From the NCBI GenBank assembly GCA_027068415.1, contig JAMOTD010000018.1:1-64000 (forward strand): a stretch of 64,000 nt of DNA, in the 5' to 3' direction. The notes beneath the pieces are model-generated. The model was not told where the DNA came from. It ran no database searches and was given only the letters and a program-made list of their open reading frames with translations. The position numbers and the translations under genes are program-made. This document shows positions 22,570 to 30,959 of this stretch, piece after piece. Within the stretch, counting starts at the first letter, position 1, and each line of letters begins with the position of its first letter. This DNA comes from Desulfurobacteriaceae bacterium (GTDB lineage: Bacteria; Aquificota; Aquificia; Desulfurobacteriales; Desulfurobacteriaceae).

Positions 22570-23019
22570 TTAACCCTGGGCAAGGAGCTCCCTAACGATT
22601 TTGTTAACGAGCGAACCATCGGCCCTACCCTTAACCTTGGGCATAACGGCCTGCATAACCTTGCCCATATCCTTGAGAGAGGTAGCTCCTACCTCTTCAA
22701 TAACCTTCTTAACCAGTTCCCTTATCTCCTCTTCACTCATCTGCTTGGGAAGGTAGCTCTCAACAATCTGGAGCTCCCTCTTTTCCTTCTCAACCAAATC
22801 CTGCCTACCGCCCTTCTCGTAGAGCTCTATTGACTCCCTCCTCTGCTTTGCGTACTTCATTAAGAGGGAGACGATTTCCTCGTCGGTAAGCTCGCCCCTC
22901 TTATCAATTTCTGCGTTCTTTATAAGGGCCTGAAGCATTCTGATTACAGAGAGCTTCTCCTTATCCTTGGCCTTTAAGGCCGCCTTCATGTCCTCTTTCA
23001 GCCTTTCTTTAAGGCTCAT
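22570..23019 (-). CDS. yqeY: GatB/YqeY domain protein
   Basis: 149 residues with the YqeY family pattern: SLKERLKEDMKAALKAKDKE at the start, LSVIRMLQALIKNAEIDKR, YAKQRRESIELYEKGGRQDL, EKRELQIVESYLPKQMSEEE and VMPKVKGRADGSLVNKIVRELL at the end. The family shares the tRNA-binding helical domain of GatB and is often beside rpsU, as here (nine bases downstream). A role in mischarged tRNA handling is suspected for the family but not shown. Confidence 0.9.
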   Translation of the reverse strand: MSLKERLKEDMKAALKAKDKEKLSVIRMLQALIKNAEIDKRGELTDEEIVSLLMKYAKQRRESIELYEKGGRQDLVEKEKRELQIVESYLPKQMSEEEIRELVKKVIEEVGATSLKDMGKVMQAVMPKVKGRADGSLVNKIVRELLAQG

Positions 23020-23028
23020 AATCTCTCC

Positions 23029-23256
23029 TTACTTTTTCTTCTTTTTACCCTTGGGGGGTAGAAGTCCGCGCTTCTTGAGGGCCTTAATCAGCCTCTTTCT
23101 GGCAGCCATTGCCTTTCTCTTCCTCTTTTCAGAGGGCTTCTCGTAGTATTCTCTTCTCTTAATCTCAGTTAAAATGCCCTCCTTCTCACAGAGCTTCTTA
23201 AACCTCTTAAGTGCCTTCTCAAAGGGCTCACCGTCGCGGACATAAACCGTTGCCAT
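23029..23256 (-). CDS. rpsU: 30S ribosomal protein S21
   Basis: 75 residues. [20 protein letters not shown] at the start and the Arg-rich [20 protein letters not shown] are the S21 signature, with a Lys-rich C-terminal tail. S21 sits near the anti-Shine-Dalgarno region on the small subunit. Its promoter (23295-23323) is clear, and the CRISPR array ends only 26 bases beyond that promoter. The gene heads rpsU-yqeY-mutS2. Confidence 0.95.
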
Positions 23257-23294
23257 AAAACACCGCCTCCTTTTTTAAGGATTTGCTGGTGGCA

Positions 23295-23323
23295 ATTATA
23301 TGCTCTCGGAAAGCCAATAGCAA
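23295..23323 (-). promoter_or_regulatory. Sigma70-type promoter of rpsU
   Basis: On the minus strand TTGCTA (23323-23318), a 17-base spacer and a perfect TATAAT (23300-23295) precede rpsU by about 40 bases. This is the best consensus promoter seen in the window. Confidence 0.75.
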
Positions 23324-23348
23324 GGGAAATAGAGCTCCCTCTTCCCTC

Positions 23349-23964
23349 GTCGCAATCCCGCTCATTTTTTCGGGCCTTTCAACTTTCCCCAGTCTTTCTG
23401 CTGGAGAAATCAAAGAGAAGTTGGAGTCGCAATCCCGCTCATTTTTTCGGGCCTTTCAACTTTGAAAGAGCAGTTAGATAGCAAACTACAAAGGGTCGCA
23501 ATCCCGCTCATTTTTTCGGGCCTTTCAACAAGATGAGTACAAAGAAAATGTTATGGAGCTTTGGAGCGAGTCGCAATCCCGCTCATTTTTTCGGGCCTTT
23601 CAACCCGATCAGGGTGCTGGGTGAGCAGGGCGAGGTCATCCTGGTCGCAATCCCGCTCATTTTTTCGGGCCTTTCAACCTGTGATGTTACTTATGTCGAC
23701 ACCCCTTGTGCCCCCGTGTCGCAATCCCGCTCATTTTTTCGGGCCTTTCAACTAATTTCGAAATTAAGGGCCAGGAGTGATGCTCGTTGGTCGCAATCCC
23801 GCTCATTTTTTCGGGCCTTTCAACCCAGAAAGAAGAGGTGGTCGGGTCACTGGGGAATGGTCGCAATCCCGCTCATTTTTTCGGGCCTTTCAACCCAGAA
23901 AGAAGAGGTGGTCGGGTCACTGGGGAATGGTCGCAATCCCGCTCATTTTTTCGGGCCTTTCAAC
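23349..23964 (-). CRISPR. CRISPR array, nine identical 35-bp repeats, eight spacers
   Basis: Repeats start at 23349, 23426, 23495, 23570, 23644, 23718, 23790, 23860 and 23930. On the plus strand each begins GTCGCAATCCCGCTC and ends CGGGCCTTTCAAC; all nine copies appear identical. Spacers are 42, 34, 40, 39, 39, 37, 35 and 35 bases, the loose spread of type III arrays. The two rightmost spacers (23825-23859 and 23895-23929) are identical. Read on the minus strand the repeat ends ATTGCGAC, the same 8-base crRNA 5' handle known for Thermus type III complexes, so transcription is leftward with the leader at 23965-24128 and oldest spacers next to rpsU. CCCG/CGGG can form a small stem for Cas6 recognition. 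Confidence 0.97.
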
Positions 23965-24128
23965 CGCACCTTTTCTGAAACCCTTGTAAATCAAGGGTAT
24001 TACTTTTAGACTAAATCGTAATAAACGACTCAAGGCCTTATGAGACAATAGCCCGGAAGTAGACAATTGTTAGAATCTCCTAATTTCCTATTCTCCTGTT
24101 AAAGACCTTTATTTCTAATTTAGTACTT
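23965..24128 (-). promoter_or_regulatory. CRISPR leader region
   Basis: 164 AT-rich bases between csx3 and the leader-proximal repeat, with no ORF. They contain a perfect 7-5-7 inverted repeat (23980-23998) 15 bases from the first repeat, and a 19-base near-copy of the csx3 3' end at 24001-24019. The orientation is inferred from the repeat handle and from the leftward cas genes. I could not place a convincing promoter; the array might be partly read through from the cas operon. Confidence 0.6.
23980..23998. repeat. Inverted repeat in CRISPR leader
   Basis: ACCCTTG-TAAAT-CAAGGGT, perfect seven-base arms and five-base loop. It could be a protein-binding anchor for spacer insertion or a weak hairpin in the precursor RNA. 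There is no T run, so it is not a standard terminator. Confidence 0.6.
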
Positions 24129-24434
24129 TTAATCTAAATCGTCAAGACTAATCACCTGTCCAGGTTTTACTTGGGGCCAGTGAGAGGCAACTACTACTGC
24201 CCCACCGAGTCGCGGGTCAAAGATGGCAACCCACCTTGCAGGGTGGAAGTGGTGGATGAGCCTCCCGTAAAACCAGATAGGCCCCCTGCCGCTTATAATA
24301 ACACCTTTAGCCGAAGGAACTTTAGGCAAAGGAACCGAGAAAGCCTCCTCGGGAGTTGTAATCCCTCCCTCTATCTCAAATTCAATCAAAACAGCCTCAA
24401 GGTTAGAAATATTCTTTTCCTTAAACTTAATCAT
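24129..24434 (-). CDS. csx3: Csx3 (Crn3-type cyclic tetra-adenylate ring nuclease)
   Basis: 101 residues. AKGVIISGRGPIWFYGRLIH near the middle, then HHFHPARWVAIFDPRLGGAVVVASHW, match Csx3: the GRGPIW motif, the paired His and the FDPRLG.AVVV strand. Csx3 tetramers sandwich and cut cA4, switching off type III ancillary effectors. It is the last cas gene before the array and overlaps the membrane CARF gene by 8 bp, so a degrader of the signal is coupled to two sensors of it. The length is that of stand-alone Csx3, without the AAA domain fused in some relatives. Confidence 0.88.
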   Translation of the reverse strand: MIKFKEKNISNLEAVLIEFEIEGGITTPEEAFSVPLPKVPSAKGVIISGRGPIWFYGRLIHHFHPARWVAIFDPRLGGAVVVASHWPQVKPGQVISLDDLD

Positions 24435-25284
24435 CTCTCACTACCTCCACATCGTAGGATTTAACTTTATAGTCGGTAGTTGAAACGTATTGAAACTCCC
24501 TGCCGGGGTTGAGGGATAAAATCGCTCCTACTATTGAGACAATCTTCTTACCGCCCGTTACGTCAAGAATTATCTCTTTCTTTTTATAACCCTCTTTTAG
24601 AAGCTTCTCATAAGCCCTCTCAATAGCCTTTTGAATTTCTTCAAAGTTTTCAAAGTCTTTAACCTTTATTTCATCTACTTTTATACGGCGAGCTTCAGGA
24701 ATAACGGCCTTTAAGAGCTCCAAAAATAGGGAAAACTGGGGAGAGCTCTCCTTTGAGGTAATAACGACCACCCTTTCAAGAACTGGCAGGTGGTAGCTAA
24801 CGGCTTCAAGAGGCATTCTCCAACTCCTAAAAATTGTTTGATTTAAAGCCTCAAGCCTCCCTTCAAGTGTGTTAATTCTTGATAGTGTATTAACCAGTTC
24901 ATTAAGTTTTTTTCGGAGCTCTCCTTCTTTCTCAATCCTAAAATTGATGTTGCTTAAAAACAAAATGAGAACTCTCTTCTTACCCGGAAACGTAGAAACT
25001 ACGGCATACTTGTAAGGGCTTACAACAATGTATCCAATAAATAAAAGTGCAAATAAAACCAAAACAGCGACAACGAGCATTATTAAGCCGTTGAGTTTAT
25101 TACAATCATTGTCAAGAAAAAGACAGTTTAAACCGTCAGGTATCCAGCCGGCTATTAAAGAAAGACAGAGAACAGTAAAAAACACTATCAATAGCGCCGT
25201 CTTGCTTGAAAATAGGGTTCCGAACTGAGAAACGAGAACCTTGGCAAACCCCCTTCTTACCTCAGCTCCAACTTTACCAAACAC
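24427..25284 (-). CDS. Membrane-anchored CARF protein (Cam1-like putative effector)
   Basis: 285 residues. Two hydrophobic helices lie at about 29-48 and 66-88, separated by a 17-residue loop with two Cys (54 and 61). The remainder is a Rossmann-like CARF domain: strand RVVVITSKES near 171-180 and the ligand-binding motif DVTGGKKIVSIVGA at 241-254. Residues 115-150 look helical and could be a linker coil. Known Cam1 has one TM helix plus CARF and depolarises the membrane on binding cA4; this protein has two helices, so it is related in plan but perhaps distinct. Start GTG/ATG region overlaps the Can2-like gene by 11 bp. Confidence 0.8.
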   Translation of the reverse strand: MFGKVGAEVRRGFAKVLVSQFGTLFSSKTALLIVFFTVLCLSLIAGWIPDGLNCLFLDNDCNKLNGLIMLVVAVLVLFALLFIGYIVVSPYKYAVVSTFPGKKRVLILFLSNINFRIEKEGELRKKLNELVNTLSRINTLEGRLEALNQTIFRSWRMPLEAVSYHLPVLERVVVITSKESSPQFSLFLELLKAVIPEARRIKVDEIKVKDFENFEEIQKAIERAYEKLLKEGYKKKEIILDVTGGKKIVSIVGAILSLNPGREFQYVSTTDYKVKSYDVEVVRDD

Positions 25285-26389
25285 TAAGCCCTCCCTCTAA
25301 AAAGTCTCTTTCAGTTAGAATCTTTATTCCCAAGAGCTCTGCCCTCTTCTTCAAGGCCCTGTACCTGCGGTACTTAGCCTCTTCCTCCGAGTACTTTCTT
25401 CCCTCTTCGGTTCTTCTATACTTCTCCCACTCTTTTCTACACTGGTAGTAGCCACCTTTAGGAGCATTGGGAAAATCCTCTCTTGAAGGAGGCTCTTTAG
25501 AAATAAATTGACTCAAAAGAACAAGATGCCCCTTACCAAAATCACCTCCTATCCGCTCGGTAAGCTCCTCAATTTCGTAGAGGTGTTCTGTCAGGTTGGC
25601 AATGTTTTTCTCGGTCTTACAGGAAAATAGGTAGAACCTGTTATTTTTTACTCCAACAACGTCAATTTCGTTCTGGACTCCGGTATCAAACCACTCTACC
25701 TTTACTCCCAGACGAAGGTCGTGAAAACCCTTATTTTTTAAGCTGAGGAAAACAAACTCCTCAAGCCACTTTCCCCCTATGTACTCCCTATCAACCGGCT
25801 CATAGCCGCCTTTAACTTTCTTAAAAAGGGAAGAGAGCTCCGGCGGGAAGAAGGTTATCTTAGCTTCGTGGTAGAGACGGGAAAGTATCCGCTGATAGGT
25901 TCTGTTTTTAGCTATTTTAAAAGTGAGCCGGGCTCTGCTCTCAACCTCCCCAAGGTTGTCTCTCTGTCCGATTATCTTAAAACCGTAAGCCGCAGCGTGC
26001 AGTTCAACGCTGAGAAGGTTTTCGGGAGCCTGTGCCACCAGAGTACCGTCAAACTTAACTATCTTACCGTCGGGCAGGTAGTAAAAAGAGTTTTCGGGGA
26101 AAAGCTTAAAAAGGTTAATTGCCGTGTATTTCGTACCACAGTTAAGCAGGTAGAGAGCTCCCTTTAAGTCGGAAACAGCCCGCTCTATAGAGCTGGAATT
26201 GTAAGGCTCTATTTCTCTAACTTCCACCTTAAGACCTTTGTACCCAAGAACTCTCTCTATTTGACGGGTAAACTTCTCCACCTTCGGAGTAGAAAGAAGG
26301 ACTATCCTCTTGGGTTTCAAAGTAAGAGCAGTAATTATCACCGGAGCTACCTGAGTTGAAACGGGAGAAACAAGAGTGTCAGTCTTCAA
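25274..26389 (-). CDS. can2: Can2/Card1-like CARF nuclease (DUF1887)
   Basis: 371 residues, close to Card1 (about 372). The N-terminal CARF domain (1-150) has VSTQVAPVIITALTL and the motif LLNCGTKYTAINLF at 81-94. The C-terminal PD-(D/E)XK nuclease domain (about 200-340) shows GGKWLEEFVFLSL (Glu210), NEIDVVGVKNN (Asp243) and LFSCKTEKN (Lys258), an intact E-D-K set. Known relatives bind cA4 and then cut ssDNA, ssRNA or nick plasmids, causing dormancy. The gene overlaps cas6 by 11 bp and the membrane CARF gene by 11 bp, so all three are translated together. Confidence 0.9.
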   Translation of the reverse strand: MKTDTLVSPVSTQVAPVIITALTLKPKRIVLLSTPKVEKFTRQIERVLGYKGLKVEVREIEPYNSSSIERAVSDLKGALYLLNCGTKYTAINLFKLFPENSFYYLPDGKIVKFDGTLVAQAPENLLSVELHAAAYGFKIIGQRDNLGEVESRARLTFKIAKNRTYQRILSRLYHEAKITFFPPELSSLFKKVKGGYEPVDREYIGGKWLEEFVFLSLKNKGFHDLRLGVKVEWFDTGVQNEIDVVGVKNNRFYLFSCKTEKNIANLTEHLYEIEELTERIGGDFGKGHLVLLSQFISKEPPSREDFPNAPKGGYYQCRKEWEKYRRTEEGRKYSEEEAKYRRYRALKKRAELLGIKILTERDFLEGGLSVW

Positions 26390-27146
26390 TACTCCCCTCC
26401 AAGAGCCTTACGCTTCCGAAGCCCATCGTCGTTTTTCGCCCGACTCCCGCAAAAGAGGCAAAACGGGCAAGGGCGTTTAGAGCTCTAAGCTCCTCGCTCT
26501 TTCCGTCGGCATAGAAAAAGACTCTCCCTGTAAAGCCGGTAAACTTTGCCCCGTCCATAATTTCAACCTTCTTCGTCCTAATCCAGCAGCCCGAGACCGT
26601 AAGGGTTTTTGAAATGTTCTTAACGAGTCCCCTCTCTATCTTAACCGGAGAAAACCTGTTCCACTTCCTCAAAAGACCTCCGAAAACGAGCCGGGGCTCG
26701 GGAACGGGGTAGTCAAAACTTCCTCTTTTAAAGGCCGTAGGGCTGAGGAAGTCAAGAACTACATCTCTACTCTCGGGCGAAGCTTCTAAGATTTCCTCAT
26801 AAGTTATTACTTCTAAAGGCTTTACCCTGACAAGCTCTGCCTTTATACTCCCGACTTCAAAAAAGTTTTCCTCAGGGAAAAAGAGGTAGCGGGAAATCTC
26901 AGGGTAGAGGGCGTTGTCAAGGAGGTTAAAGACTATAGCAAAACGGCTCGTCCGACGGTTCGGGTAGCGGAAGTGGGAGTTTATTGAAATTGAAAAGGGT
27001 TTAGCTACCCCTTCGTGGAGGAGACGGCCGACTTCGGGAGCTCCCTTAAAGAGTGAAAAGAGTATTCCGTGGGCAACTCTCGGTTTAAGCTCCGAGAGCT
27101 CCATCTCTTTATCTGTCCTGAAGCTCAAAAGAACCTTTAAGGGCAT
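26379..27146 (-). CDS. cas6: CRISPR repeat endonuclease Cas6
   Basis: 255 residues with two ferredoxin-like RAMP folds. FLSPTAFKRG in the middle and the C-terminal Gly-rich loop FASFAGVGRKTTMGFGSVRL are the Cas6 landmarks; FTGRVFFYADG precedes the second fold. His near residues 25 and 57 are catalytic candidates but I cannot assign them. Cas6 cuts the precursor within the repeat, leaving the 8-base ATTGCGAC handle. It lies one base after csm5 and overlaps the Can2-like gene. Confidence 0.88.
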   Translation of the reverse strand: MPLKVLLSFRTDKEMELSELKPRVAHGILFSLFKGAPEVGRLLHEGVAKPFSISINSHFRYPNRRTSRFAIVFNLLDNALYPEISRYLFFPEENFFEVGSIKAELVRVKPLEVITYEEILEASPESRDVVLDFLSPTAFKRGSFDYPVPEPRLVFGGLLRKWNRFSPVKIERGLVKNISKTLTVSGCWIRTKKVEIMDGAKFTGFTGRVFFYADGKSEELRALNALARFASFAGVGRKTTMGFGSVRLLEGSIED

Positions 27147-27147
27147 A

Positions 27148-28307
27148 CTACACCTCTAAGGTTAAAAGGCACCAGCCGGCAGGTTTAGAGTTTATAAGGG
27201 AAATAGTATGGGGAACAACCCTAAAACCGGTTTTCCTGTTGCCCACAAGCCTTAAGCGGTCATCAAGGTAGGTCTTTGACAGGGCACCACCTCCGAAGCC
27301 GAGCTTTACAGGAACTGCTCCTTCGGGAATTTTAAAGGGAAAGTAGGAATAGATAGACGTGAAAACACTCCTTTCCTTTTCTAAAAGCTTCTCCCCTCTC
27401 CTTTTAAGCTCGCTGAGGATTTTTTCCTTTGAGATTTTCACTCTACAGGAGAGAAACTTTTCTAAGTACTCCGGGTAGAGACGAATCTCCCCTCTAAAAA
27501 CTCCTCTGTTTATGTACTCCAAATGAGCATTCAGATTTCTTTCAGGTTTACGACCGTCTCTGTACCTCCTCTGTAAAAGGCCTACCCTAACTTCCACATC
27601 TCCGTTTTCGGGAAGGAAATCAGAGACCTTTATAAAACGGAAAAGTTCCTTTTTGGTCGGAGGTTTCTTAAAGAGTTTTTTATCAACTCCCTCAACGGGT
27701 CGGCAGAGGAGCACTTTTTCCATATCATAAAAAACCTTAGAGAGTTCTTTCTGAGCACTCTTTATCAGCTCTCCCTTTAACCTCTTTACCTCCCTTTTAT
27801 CAACTTCCCACTTCTCAACCGGACCTTTAAAAGGCTTAAGCATAGCCCTGACCTTTTCAACTTTTGAAGCGTAAAAATCCGAACAGCAGGAAGTTATAAC
27901 TGCTTCAAGGATAGCAGTTCTGATAACCCCCTTTATTGAAGAGCCAGGTATGTAGGGAAGGCCATTAAGCGGATTTTTGACTATCTCTTTGATTTTTGAA
28001 GGAAGATGCTCTAAGTCAACTGCAAAAGAAAGAGAATCGGAAAAAGGGGAAAACTCCCTATAGTAGGAGTAGAGCTCCTCTAAACTTTCCCGAGTGCCGT
28101 CAAAACGCTCTTTCAAAAACTCCAGAAAATCCCCCAACTTACCTTCTCTCTTCAGCCGTTCTATTAAAAGTTGAAAATCCAACCTAAACAATTTCCTCTC
28201 TTTCTCGTCAAAATAATACTCAAAGAGAGAGAGAGCTCCTCTCCGGTCAAAATTGCTACGGGAGAAACAATTTTAAGGTTAAACCTCAATACTATTGGCT
28301 CAACCAT
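27148..28307 (-). pseudogene. csm5: csm5 (type III-A RAMP, Cas7 group), frameshifted in a GA tract
   Basis: An ATG at 28307 overlaps the csm3 stop (TAATG) and has GAGGAGG before it. It reads MVEPIVLRFNLKIVSPVAIL then TGEELS, the normal Csm5 start, but the frame ends at 28164. The rest (from about 28230 to 27148) continues in another frame as LFEYYFDEKERKLFRLDF..., with NPLNGLPYIPGSSIKGVIRT and an intact C-terminus. The frames meet in a GA dinucleotide run (28225-28235): removing one 2-base unit gives a continuous 385-residue Csm5. Without it only an internal start such as TTG at 28191 could make a truncated protein of 347 residues lacking the first RAMP strand. Csm5 caps the 3' end of the crRNA backbone. 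Confidence 0.88.
28225..28235. repeat. Dinucleotide (GA)5G tract inside csm5
   Basis: Eleven bases of alternating G and A on the plus strand (CT on the coding strand). It is the exact point at which the two csm5 frames join. Slippage of one unit (to nine bases) restores the frame. Confidence 0.9.
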
Positions 28308-29113
28308 TAATCCTCCTCAGCAAAGTGGTTCTTAACCTCAGCCTCCACAGTCTTTCTCTTTGAAAGCCTGGGGCGGGCAATGAGTCTCTTATCTGCCTCT
28401 TTTGAAAAGACTTCAACCATTCCATAACCCCTTGAGGAGCGACCCCCGAGGCCGTTAAGCTCAAGCAGGTAAAAGGCCGTTGCCAGAAGATTTAAGAAGA
28501 GTTGGGGAGAATCTTCCCAACCGGCTTCTTCGTCTTTAAAGGTCTTAAACCTGAGGTTAAACTTAAAAACCGCCCCGGCAGGAATCCTTTCAGATTGATT
28601 GAGGGCCGCAGAGTAGGTAGTTCCGGTTATCCTGTTTATCTTGACTTCCGTTTTTTCTTCGGCCATTAAGCTCCCAACTCTCTCTCTGAGTTCCGAGGCA
28701 GAAGCCTCCTTTAAAAAGAGGTCGGGGACAACCAGACGGCTGGGAAAAACTTCGTTAATTTCCTCTTCGTCCAGGCCAGCCTCATCAGCAGAAGTTCCAA
28801 AGAGCTTTAAAATATATAGGCCCGTCTCAAACTTACTCTTTTCCAGACCCTTAAGCTTTAGTTGAGACAGAGATTTATAAGAGAGAACATCACCCTTTTC
28901 AGAAAAGAGGCCGAAGTAGAGCTCCAAAAGGGCTCTAAGCCTTCCCTTGAGAGAGGAGCCCGGAATGTAGGGCATACCGGTTAAAGGGTCTCTTACGATT
29001 TGATTTTCAACCCCGCCGATTTTCAAAGACTCTCTGCCTATCCCTATGTGGAGGCCGGTTTTTAAAAGGAGCTCCCCCTCAACCTCCCAAACATCCCAGA
29101 GCCTTTTTCCCAT
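28307..29113 (-). CDS. csm3: Csm3, type III-A backbone RNase (Cas7 group)
   Basis: 268 residues. TGLHIGIGRESLKIGGVENQ, IVRDPLTGMPYIPGSSLKGR and the late Gly-rich loop NGLGGRSSRGYGMVEV are clear Csm3 motifs. Csm3 polymerises on crRNA and cuts target RNA every six bases with an Asp (Asp33 in well-studied proteins, in the motif IGA/GxDxPVIRD). Here that position appears to be Glu36 (GGVENQIVRD). It is the first gene of the cas operon in this window; no csm2, csm4 or cas10 precedes it, and hemB ends only 65 bases upstream. A GGAGGGAGGT ribosome-binding site precedes ATG. Confidence 0.92.
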   Translation of the reverse strand: MGKRLWDVWEVEGELLLKTGLHIGIGRESLKIGGVENQIVRDPLTGMPYIPGSSLKGRLRALLELYFGLFSEKGDVLSYKSLSQLKLKGLEKSKFETGLYILKLFGTSADEAGLDEEEINEVFPSRLVVPDLFLKEASASELRERVGSLMAEEKTEVKINRITGTTYSAALNQSERIPAGAVFKFNLRFKTFKDEEAGWEDSPQLFLNLLATAFYLLELNGLGGRSSRGYGMVEVFSKEADKRLIARPRLSKRKTVEAEVKNHFAEED

Positions 29114-29178
29114 ACCTCCCTCCTCAATCCATTTCCTTCATCTTTAAACGGAAAGATCCAAGAGAACCTGACACAGAA

Positions 29179-30177
29179 TCAGCCCTCTCTGAGCCACCTT
29201 GCGGCGTCAAGGGCGTGGTAGGTAAGAATTAAGTCTGCTCCTGCCCTCTTTATTGCAGTCAGGGTTTCAAGGACTACCCTCTTTTCGTCTATCCAGCCCT
29301 TTAAGGCGGCAGCCTTAACCATTGCGTACTCGCCGCTGACGTTGTAGGCTGCCGTCGGGTACTTGAAGGTCTCCTTAACCCTTCTGATTATGTCAAGGTA
29401 GGCAAGGGCCGGCTTTACCATCACGATGTCTGCACCCTCTTTAATGTCAAGGGCAACTTCCCTTAAGGCCTCATCGGAGTTTGCCGGGTCCATCTGGTAG
29501 GAGCGCCTGTCCCCGAAGGCCGGAGTTGACTCGGCTGCGTCCCTAAAAGGGCCGTAGTAGGCCGAGGCGTACTTGGCGGCGTAGGACATTATCGGAATCT
29601 CGCTAAAGCCTGCCCCATCAAGGGCTTCCCTTATTGCCTTTATCATTCCGTCCATCATTCCCGAAGGAGCAACCATGTCCGCACCTGCCTGAGCGTGGGA
29701 GACGACCTGCTTCTTTAGGAGCTCTAAAGTCTTGTCGTTGTCAACGTCGCAGACCTCTCCCGAGCAGGTCAAGTACCCGCAGTGGCCGTGGTTGGTGTAC
29801 TCGCAGAAGCAGACGTCGGTTATAACGTAGAGGTTCGGCGCTTCTTTCTTAATCTTCCTTATCGCCCTCTGGATTATTCCGTGCTCGGAGTAGGAGTCGC
29901 TTCCGAGCTCGTCCTTGTGGGAGGGGATTCCGAAGAGGATTACTGCAGGGATTTGGAGCTCCTCAACTTGAGAGAGAATTTCAGGAAGCCTGTCTATTGA
30001 GTACCTGAACTGGCCGGGCATTGAGGGTATTTCCTCTTTTACGTTCTCCCCGTCAACTACGAAGATTGGGTAGATAAAGTCGTCGGGAGTTAAGACGGTC
30101 TCCCTTACCATTCGCCTTATGTTCTCGTTCTTCCTTAGCCTTCTCAACCTGAGGTGAGGAAAGTTTCCGGTTAACAT
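29179..30177 (-). CDS. hemB: Porphobilinogen synthase (delta-aminolevulinic acid dehydratase)
   Basis: 332 residues from ATG 30177, six bases after GGAGG; a GTG at 30183 abuts that site. [20 protein letters not shown] opens the protein. [20 protein letters not shown] near 120-140 supplies Cys and His of the zinc or magnesium site, and the two Schiff-base lysines lie in [20 protein letters not shown] and [14 protein letters not shown]. It condenses two 5-aminolevulinates. It is apart from hemACD in the window and stands alone. Confidence 0.96.
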
Positions 30178-30239
30178 TTGCACCCTCCGAGTTTTCCCTT
30201 AAATTGTCCGGTTAAGATTCTATCAGAAGGAGTTCAGCC

Positions 30240-30959
30240 GTGATTTACAGGCTGAAGTTTGGGAAAAGGGAAGTTTACCTGAAGGAAGCCAAACCCCTCG
30301 GAGCTCTGACTTTCGGCCGGGAAGAGCCCGTTGAAGAGCTGGGAGTCTTGGAGGTTTACGGTCAAAAAGTTGAAATCGGAGGAACTCCGAGAGAGCCCTT
30401 CGGTGAGAGCAGCAGAAACTACCCTCTAATTGTTAAGGCGGCTCAGGTTGTAGCCCTAACCGCCGCAGGAGCTCCGATTGAAGGAGCTTTAGAGGTAAAA
30501 GAGACAGGTAGGAGGGAGCTCCTTTTAATCGGGGAGGTCTTGAGGGAGCTCTTAGGGGAAAGGGCGCTATTAAACTTTACCCTTGAAGGGCTCTTGAGCA
30601 CCTTTGAGGGGGAGAGGAATCCCCACTTTAAAGAGCTCTTAAAGGGCAGGGAGGAGGAGACTTTGGGGGAGCTCCTAAGAGAGGGCTACCTTGCAAGGGT
30701 AGTGGGAATCTACTTCGGAGAGGTCGGAAAGGAAGGGATTGAGGAGGGAGCTCCGGTTTTCGTTGTTAGGGAGCACGACAACAGAGCCGACCCCAATGCG
30801 GTAAAAGTTCTATACAAAGACGGCAGAAAACTGGGGTACCTGAGGAGGAGCTTGGCAAAAAAGTTTGCCCCGATTATTGACGAAGGAATTCTCTTAACGG
30901 GAAGGCTCGTAAGGGCTGAAAGGGAAGTTGTCGTAGAGATAAAGGCGGTAGGGACTTAG
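30240..30959 (+). CDS. HIRAN-domain protein
   Basis: 239 residues. The C-terminal 100 residues are a HIRAN domain: YLARVVGIYFGE, then VFVVREHDNRADPNAVKVLY and RKLGYLRRSLAKKFAPIIDEG. HIRAN domains bind 3' ends of ssDNA or stalled forks and are found alone or on helicases. The N-terminal 140 residues have no family I can name. The start has AGAAGGAG before it (30227-30234), divergent from hemB with 62 bases between. Role in DNA repair or defence is inference. Confidence 0.75.
   Translation: MIYRLKFGKREVYLKEAKPLGALTFGREEPVEELGVLEVYGQKVEIGGTPREPFGESSRNYPLIVKAAQVVALTAAGAPIEGALEVKETGRRELLLIGEVLRELLGERALLNFTLEGLLSTFEGERNPHFKELLKGREEETLGELLREGYLARVVGIYFGEVGKEGIEEGAPVFVVREHDNRADPNAVKVLYKDGRKLGYLRRSLAKKFAPIIDEGILLTGRLVRAEREVVVEIKAVGT

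Follow-up and report, generated by a model that had tools for sequence, protein, structure and literature searches.

A csm5 frameshift at a short CT tract in a partly deleted type III-A CRISPR operon: probable slippage pseudogene in a decaying locus

In the 64,000-nucleotide stretch of DNA analysed here (the window), csm5 of a type III-A operon is divided between two reading frames that appear to meet at a dinucleotide tract. The question is whether such a gene is reversibly switched, permanently lost or wrongly read, three possibilities that a preliminary description of the locus had left side by side. The window is 49% G+C, and its genome is available as a 34-contig draft of 1.595 Mb.

Reading frames of csm5 and the dinucleotide tract

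27148-28307, minus strand: csm5 as a whole, frameshifted, in a type III-A operon
28164..28307, minus strand: 47-codon csm5 ORF in frame 0, with the correct start, cut short by a premature stop
27148..28191, minus strand: ORF for the body of csm5, out of frame with the start, open from 28272, TTG 28191 the first start codon, matching TIGR01899
28224..28235, minus strand: AG x6 tract (CT x6 on the coding strand), meeting place of the two csm5 frames

Direct reading of the sequence bore out the start assigned earlier: the csm5 ATG (28307-28305, minus strand) overlaps the csm3 stop codon TAA (28309-28307) as TAATG. From this ATG, frame 0 encodes 47 aa (MVEPIVLRFNLKIVSPVAILTGEELSLSLSIILTRKRGNCLGWIFNF) and ends at a stop codon at 28166-28164, with the Csm5 N-terminus (MVEPIVLRFNLKIVSPVAILTGEELS) lying ahead of the CT tract. 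The remainder of Csm5 (LFEYYFDEKERKLFRLDFQ...) is in another frame, open from 28272 to 27148 (minus strand), and its earliest start codon is the TTG at 28191. This body ORF scored 50.2 bits against the curated Csm5 model TIGR01899, above the curated cut-off of 38.3, and the match, taken together with the reading of the ORFs, upheld the claim that the rest of the gene lies out of frame with its start. The frame changes after about codon 26 and the premature stop follows codon 47; there is thus a recognizable member of the Csm5 family here, and no single unbroken ORF that includes the N-terminal strands. The body is free of further lesions, and the nearest homologues are about 40% identical.

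The two frames had been described as meeting exactly in an 11-base GA run. The tract is in fact 12 bp long (AGAGAGAGAGAG, 28224-28235), one A having been left out of the range 28225-28235, and CT x6 falls within codons 24-28 of frame 0. When a Csm5 profile from nine relatives was scored on each possible 2-nt skip, the junctions inside the tract all tied for the top score of 234.0 bits, which supports the tract as the best junction. However, a stretch of about 40 bp gave junctions within about 6 bits of the top score, so that homology places the site to about 20 bp either way and 'exactly' says more than homology can prove. Intact relatives (TGESYTLF in the copy on contig C17) have the spacing expected of a tract one unit shorter. 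Given this spacing and the top score within the tract, the csm5 frameshift is most simply read as the result of slippage in the dinucleotide tract.

Is the tract unusual? Shuffling the window gave an expectation of 0.13 AG tracts of 12 bp per 64 kb, with at least one present in 10 of 100 shuffles, and of 0.77 tracts of 10 bp per window. Extrapolation of the shuffled composition of the window to 1.595 Mb predicted about 3.2 tracts of 12 bp and about 19 of 10 bp in the genome, where 3 and 22, respectively, were observed. The 12-bp tract is therefore mildly unusual for the window and normal for the genome, in which it ranks with the longest GA tracts (one of three of 12 bp). GA tracts of 10 and 11 bases also occur in csm2, csm4 and herA of the csm operon on contig C17, and those ORFs are all intact. 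Another 12-bp GA tract (C15:104735-104746; L074 ~2236-2247) sits among the first codons of an uninterrupted ORF for a chain-length determinant-like protein (Wzz-like by eye).

A study of Neisseria applied a cut-off of 8 units for phase-variable dinucleotides, and dinucleotide tract lengths in that study were unchanged (PMC5953494). The csm5 tract has 6 units. It resembles an SSR contingency locus in being an intragenic repeat (CT x6) whose unit is not a multiple of three and whose length sets the frame, yet it is neither over-long nor above the length cut-off. The csm5 tract is without any mark of a maintained switch.

The remnant operon and the other CRISPR systems of the genome

The operon in the window runs csm3-csm5-cas6-card1-CARF/TM-csx3-array and sits between hemB and the rpsU promoter.

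29114..29178, minus strand: 65 bp separating hemB from csm3, the place of cas10 and csm2 in a relative's operon; no trace of either
28307..29113, minus strand: csm3, ORF intact, the catalytic Asp replaced by Glu36
26379..27146, minus strand: cas6, intact, one of three cas6 in the genome
25274..26389, minus strand: gene for a Card1-like CARF-PD-(D/E)XK nuclease, intact
24427..25284, minus strand: gene for a CARF protein with transmembrane segments (CARF/TM), intact
24129..24434, minus strand: csx3/crn3 ring nuclease gene, intact
23347..23997, minus strand: CRISPR array, 9 repeats, the repeat being common to the C17 and C9 arrays

No trace of cas10, csm2, csm4, cas1 or cas2 was found in window 23001-30300. 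Csm4-like tblastn matches in the window fell at positions inside csm3 and did not represent csm4. The set cas10, csm2, csm3, csm4 and csm5 that makes up a complete type III-A effector operon is thus broken by the absence of cas10, csm2 and csm4, and for this reason the operon alone cannot make a Csm complex in either phase of the tract. Downstream, csm5 and cas6 adjoin as TAG-T-ATG. The rpsU promoter (TTGCTA-17-TATAAT, window 23295-23323, minus strand) abuts the end of the array, in which one repeat-spacer unit of 70 bp is present as an exact tandem duplicate (window 23788-23927).

The csm3 product also departs from its relatives. It has Glu36 where all 10 aligned relatives have Asp, and hence lacks the catalytic Asp of Csm3 in complete type III-A systems; it deviates at 5 of 48 otherwise invariant columns, whereas the other copies deviate at 0-2, except the divergent C9 copy (10). 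In alignment to solved Csm3 structures, Glu36 lies opposite this conserved Asp, which is taken, by its motif, to correspond to D33 of Streptococcus thermophilus Csm3. The D33A substitution in S. thermophilus Csm3 stops RNA cleavage (PMC6461802).

Two complete Csm operons are present elsewhere in the genome, cas10-csm2-csm3-csm4-csm5-herA on C17 and cas10-csm2-csm3-csm4-csm5 on C9; profile searches of the genome found two copies each of Cas10 and Csm4 and no third. C22 carries a type I-B system that includes a cas6 of its own, and C9 a lone cas6. PF10040 had suggested that the window cas6 was the sole one, which was ruled out by three TIGR01877 matches in the genome. The C17 operon has no cas6, whereas its counterpart in genome G007 has one between csm5 and herA (L003 12617-13840, L025 9379-10158), and the window operon retains a cas6 of the kind that the C17 operon is missing. 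The window repeat is identical to that of the C17 and C9 arrays, and relatives with this type of cas6 carry arrays of the same repeat type. As side observations, the Cas10 on C9 (L004 12320-14155) apparently has no N-terminal HD part (its Csm1 match begins at profile position 224 of 753) and has GGDD, while the Cas10 on C17 has both; C11 (L083 2382-4517) carries a second, divergent Csx3-like gene beside cas1, a cas2-like gene and an array whose repeat is a 97% variant of that in the window.

Explanations of the frameshift

Taking these results together, csm5 is probably a recent slippage pseudogene in a dispensable part of a partly deleted type III-A operon. Fixed loss, one of the three possibilities first listed, fits best with the loss of cas10, csm2, csm4, cas1 and cas2, the Glu in Csm3 and the two complete operons elsewhere. 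Replication slippage would have added one CT unit to a short CT tract, shifting the frame after codon 26 and stopping translation at codon 47, in an operon already stripped to csm3-csm5-cas6-card1-CARF/TM-csx3-array. Interference would presumably be carried out by the two complete Csm operons, and since the remnant cannot form a complex, the frameshift would be tolerated. A stripped operon with complete ones elsewhere points to ordinary gene decay rather than to an on/off switch, and we infer that selection on csm5 has been relaxed. In an intact operon the loss of csm5 would matter, because crRNA maturation in Staphylococcus epidermidis needs Csm5 (PMC6447361). As a counterpoint, the undamaged csm5 body, the intact TAATG and the intact csm3 ORF mean that selection on the csm3-csm5 pair may have lasted until recently, for instance with the two proteins serving as additional subunits of another Csm complex.

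The genes downstream of csm5 may have a different fate. The window cas6, card1, CARF/TM and csx3, together with the array, may still serve other Csm complexes in trans, a role that is plausible because the arrays on other contigs have an identical repeat, although with three cas6 in the genome reliance on the window cas6 does not follow. The data suggest complementary loss among the type III-A operons of one genome. In the window operon the effector half is decaying and cas6, the cyclic-nucleotide effectors and the array are retained; the C17 operon has its effector genes and no cas6.

An assembly or sequencing error, in which the true tract would be one unit shorter and csm5 intact in the organism, is unlikely. 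In favour of an error are the single draft assembly of 34 contigs and the otherwise clean body ORF. However, each of the 29 neighbouring genes that have a counterpart in a congener reads in one frame, over a total of 27.5 kb of coding sequence, so the indel error rate is low; the other GA tracts of 10-12 bp in the C17 csm operon sit in intact genes; and the losses of genes around csm5 are independent of the tract. Genome-contig scans, in a set that may omit this genome, found no second genome with this locus and no other tract length.

It is quite improbable that csm5 is functional as it stands, either by a restart at TTG 28191 giving a shortened Csm5 or by slippage of the ribosome or RNA polymerase in the tract giving the full-length protein. 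The TTG, 25 nt ahead of the frame-0 stop, follows a purine-rich site (duplex -8.1 kcal/mol), and translation from it would run on up to cas6 across the TAG-T-ATG junction; yet of the five sites tested in the operon this one is the weakest (the others range from -9.7 to -12.9), and a restart here would drop the region making up the first strands (6-14, 21-26, 31-34 and part of 37-41) in a C17 Csm5 model (pLDDT 84). As for slippage during expression, no X-XXY-YYZ heptamer was seen by eye at the tract.

Phase variation, in which a reversible tract length would toggle Csm5 and perhaps also cas6-card1-CARF/TM-csx3 by polarity, is very improbable. That the best frame junction lies inside one of the longest GA tracts of the genome and that the remainder of csm5 is undamaged would both suit a switch, but 10- and 12-bp tracts occur at the frequency predicted by shuffling, the 6 units fall short of the cut-off of 8 used in the Neisseria study, and an operon without cas10, csm2 and csm4 yields no complete complex in either phase. 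Our literature searches, moreover, found no report of an SSR-switched csm gene. Hardly to be expected at all is a slow switch in which the tract, via Csm5 and polarity on cas6, card1, CARF/TM and csx3, would set the crRNA processing and the cyclic-nucleotide response lent to the two complete Csm complexes.

Comparison with known systems

The SSR contingency loci of Neisseria and Campylobacter (PMC5953494, PMC8437040) are like csm5 in that the length of an intragenic repeat fixes the reading frame. The csm5 tract differs from them in having 6 dinucleotide units, occurring at chance frequency and lying in a remnant operon. When a short repeat is found at a frame junction, the surrounding operon and the chance frequency of the repeat should be checked before phase variation is called.

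The closest counterpart of the window operon is the complete operon of a member of the same family (G006, L026), cas10-csm2-csm3-csm4-csm5-cas6-card1-CARF/TM-csx3-cas1-cas2-array, in which cas1 and cas2 were named from sequence and position. The order and families of csm3, csm5, cas6, card1, CARF/TM, csx3 and the array are as in the window, and the repeat type is the same; in contrast, the window operon has no cas10, csm2, csm4, cas1 or cas2, its csm5 is frameshifted and its Csm3 has Glu for Asp. In the congener G001, rpsU comes straight after hemB, and its promoter region is the same as in the window. A csm5-like match near hemB in G001 was spurious, and no csm genes lie between hemB and rpsU there.

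In another family member (G004, L072 9165-15000), a 92-aa ORF encoding the C-terminus of Csm5 precedes an intact cas6-card1-CARF/TM-cas1-cas2-array, in which Cas1 was confirmed. As in the window, the effector half is gone and cas6, card1, CARF/TM and the array are retained. Unlike the window operon, this one has only the tail of csm5 and no csm3, and retains cas1-cas2, in a genome that gave no match to Cas10. The G004 operon looks like the same operon in a more reduced form, and the effector half of this operon type has therefore probably been lost more than once. Incomplete type III loci have also been reported in thermophiles, such as the III-D locus of Stygiolobus azoricus (PMC7694759), which, like the window operon, is short of some effector genes. 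The present case differs in that the genome with the remnant also carries two complete Csm operons as well as a type I-B system that has a cas6 of its own.
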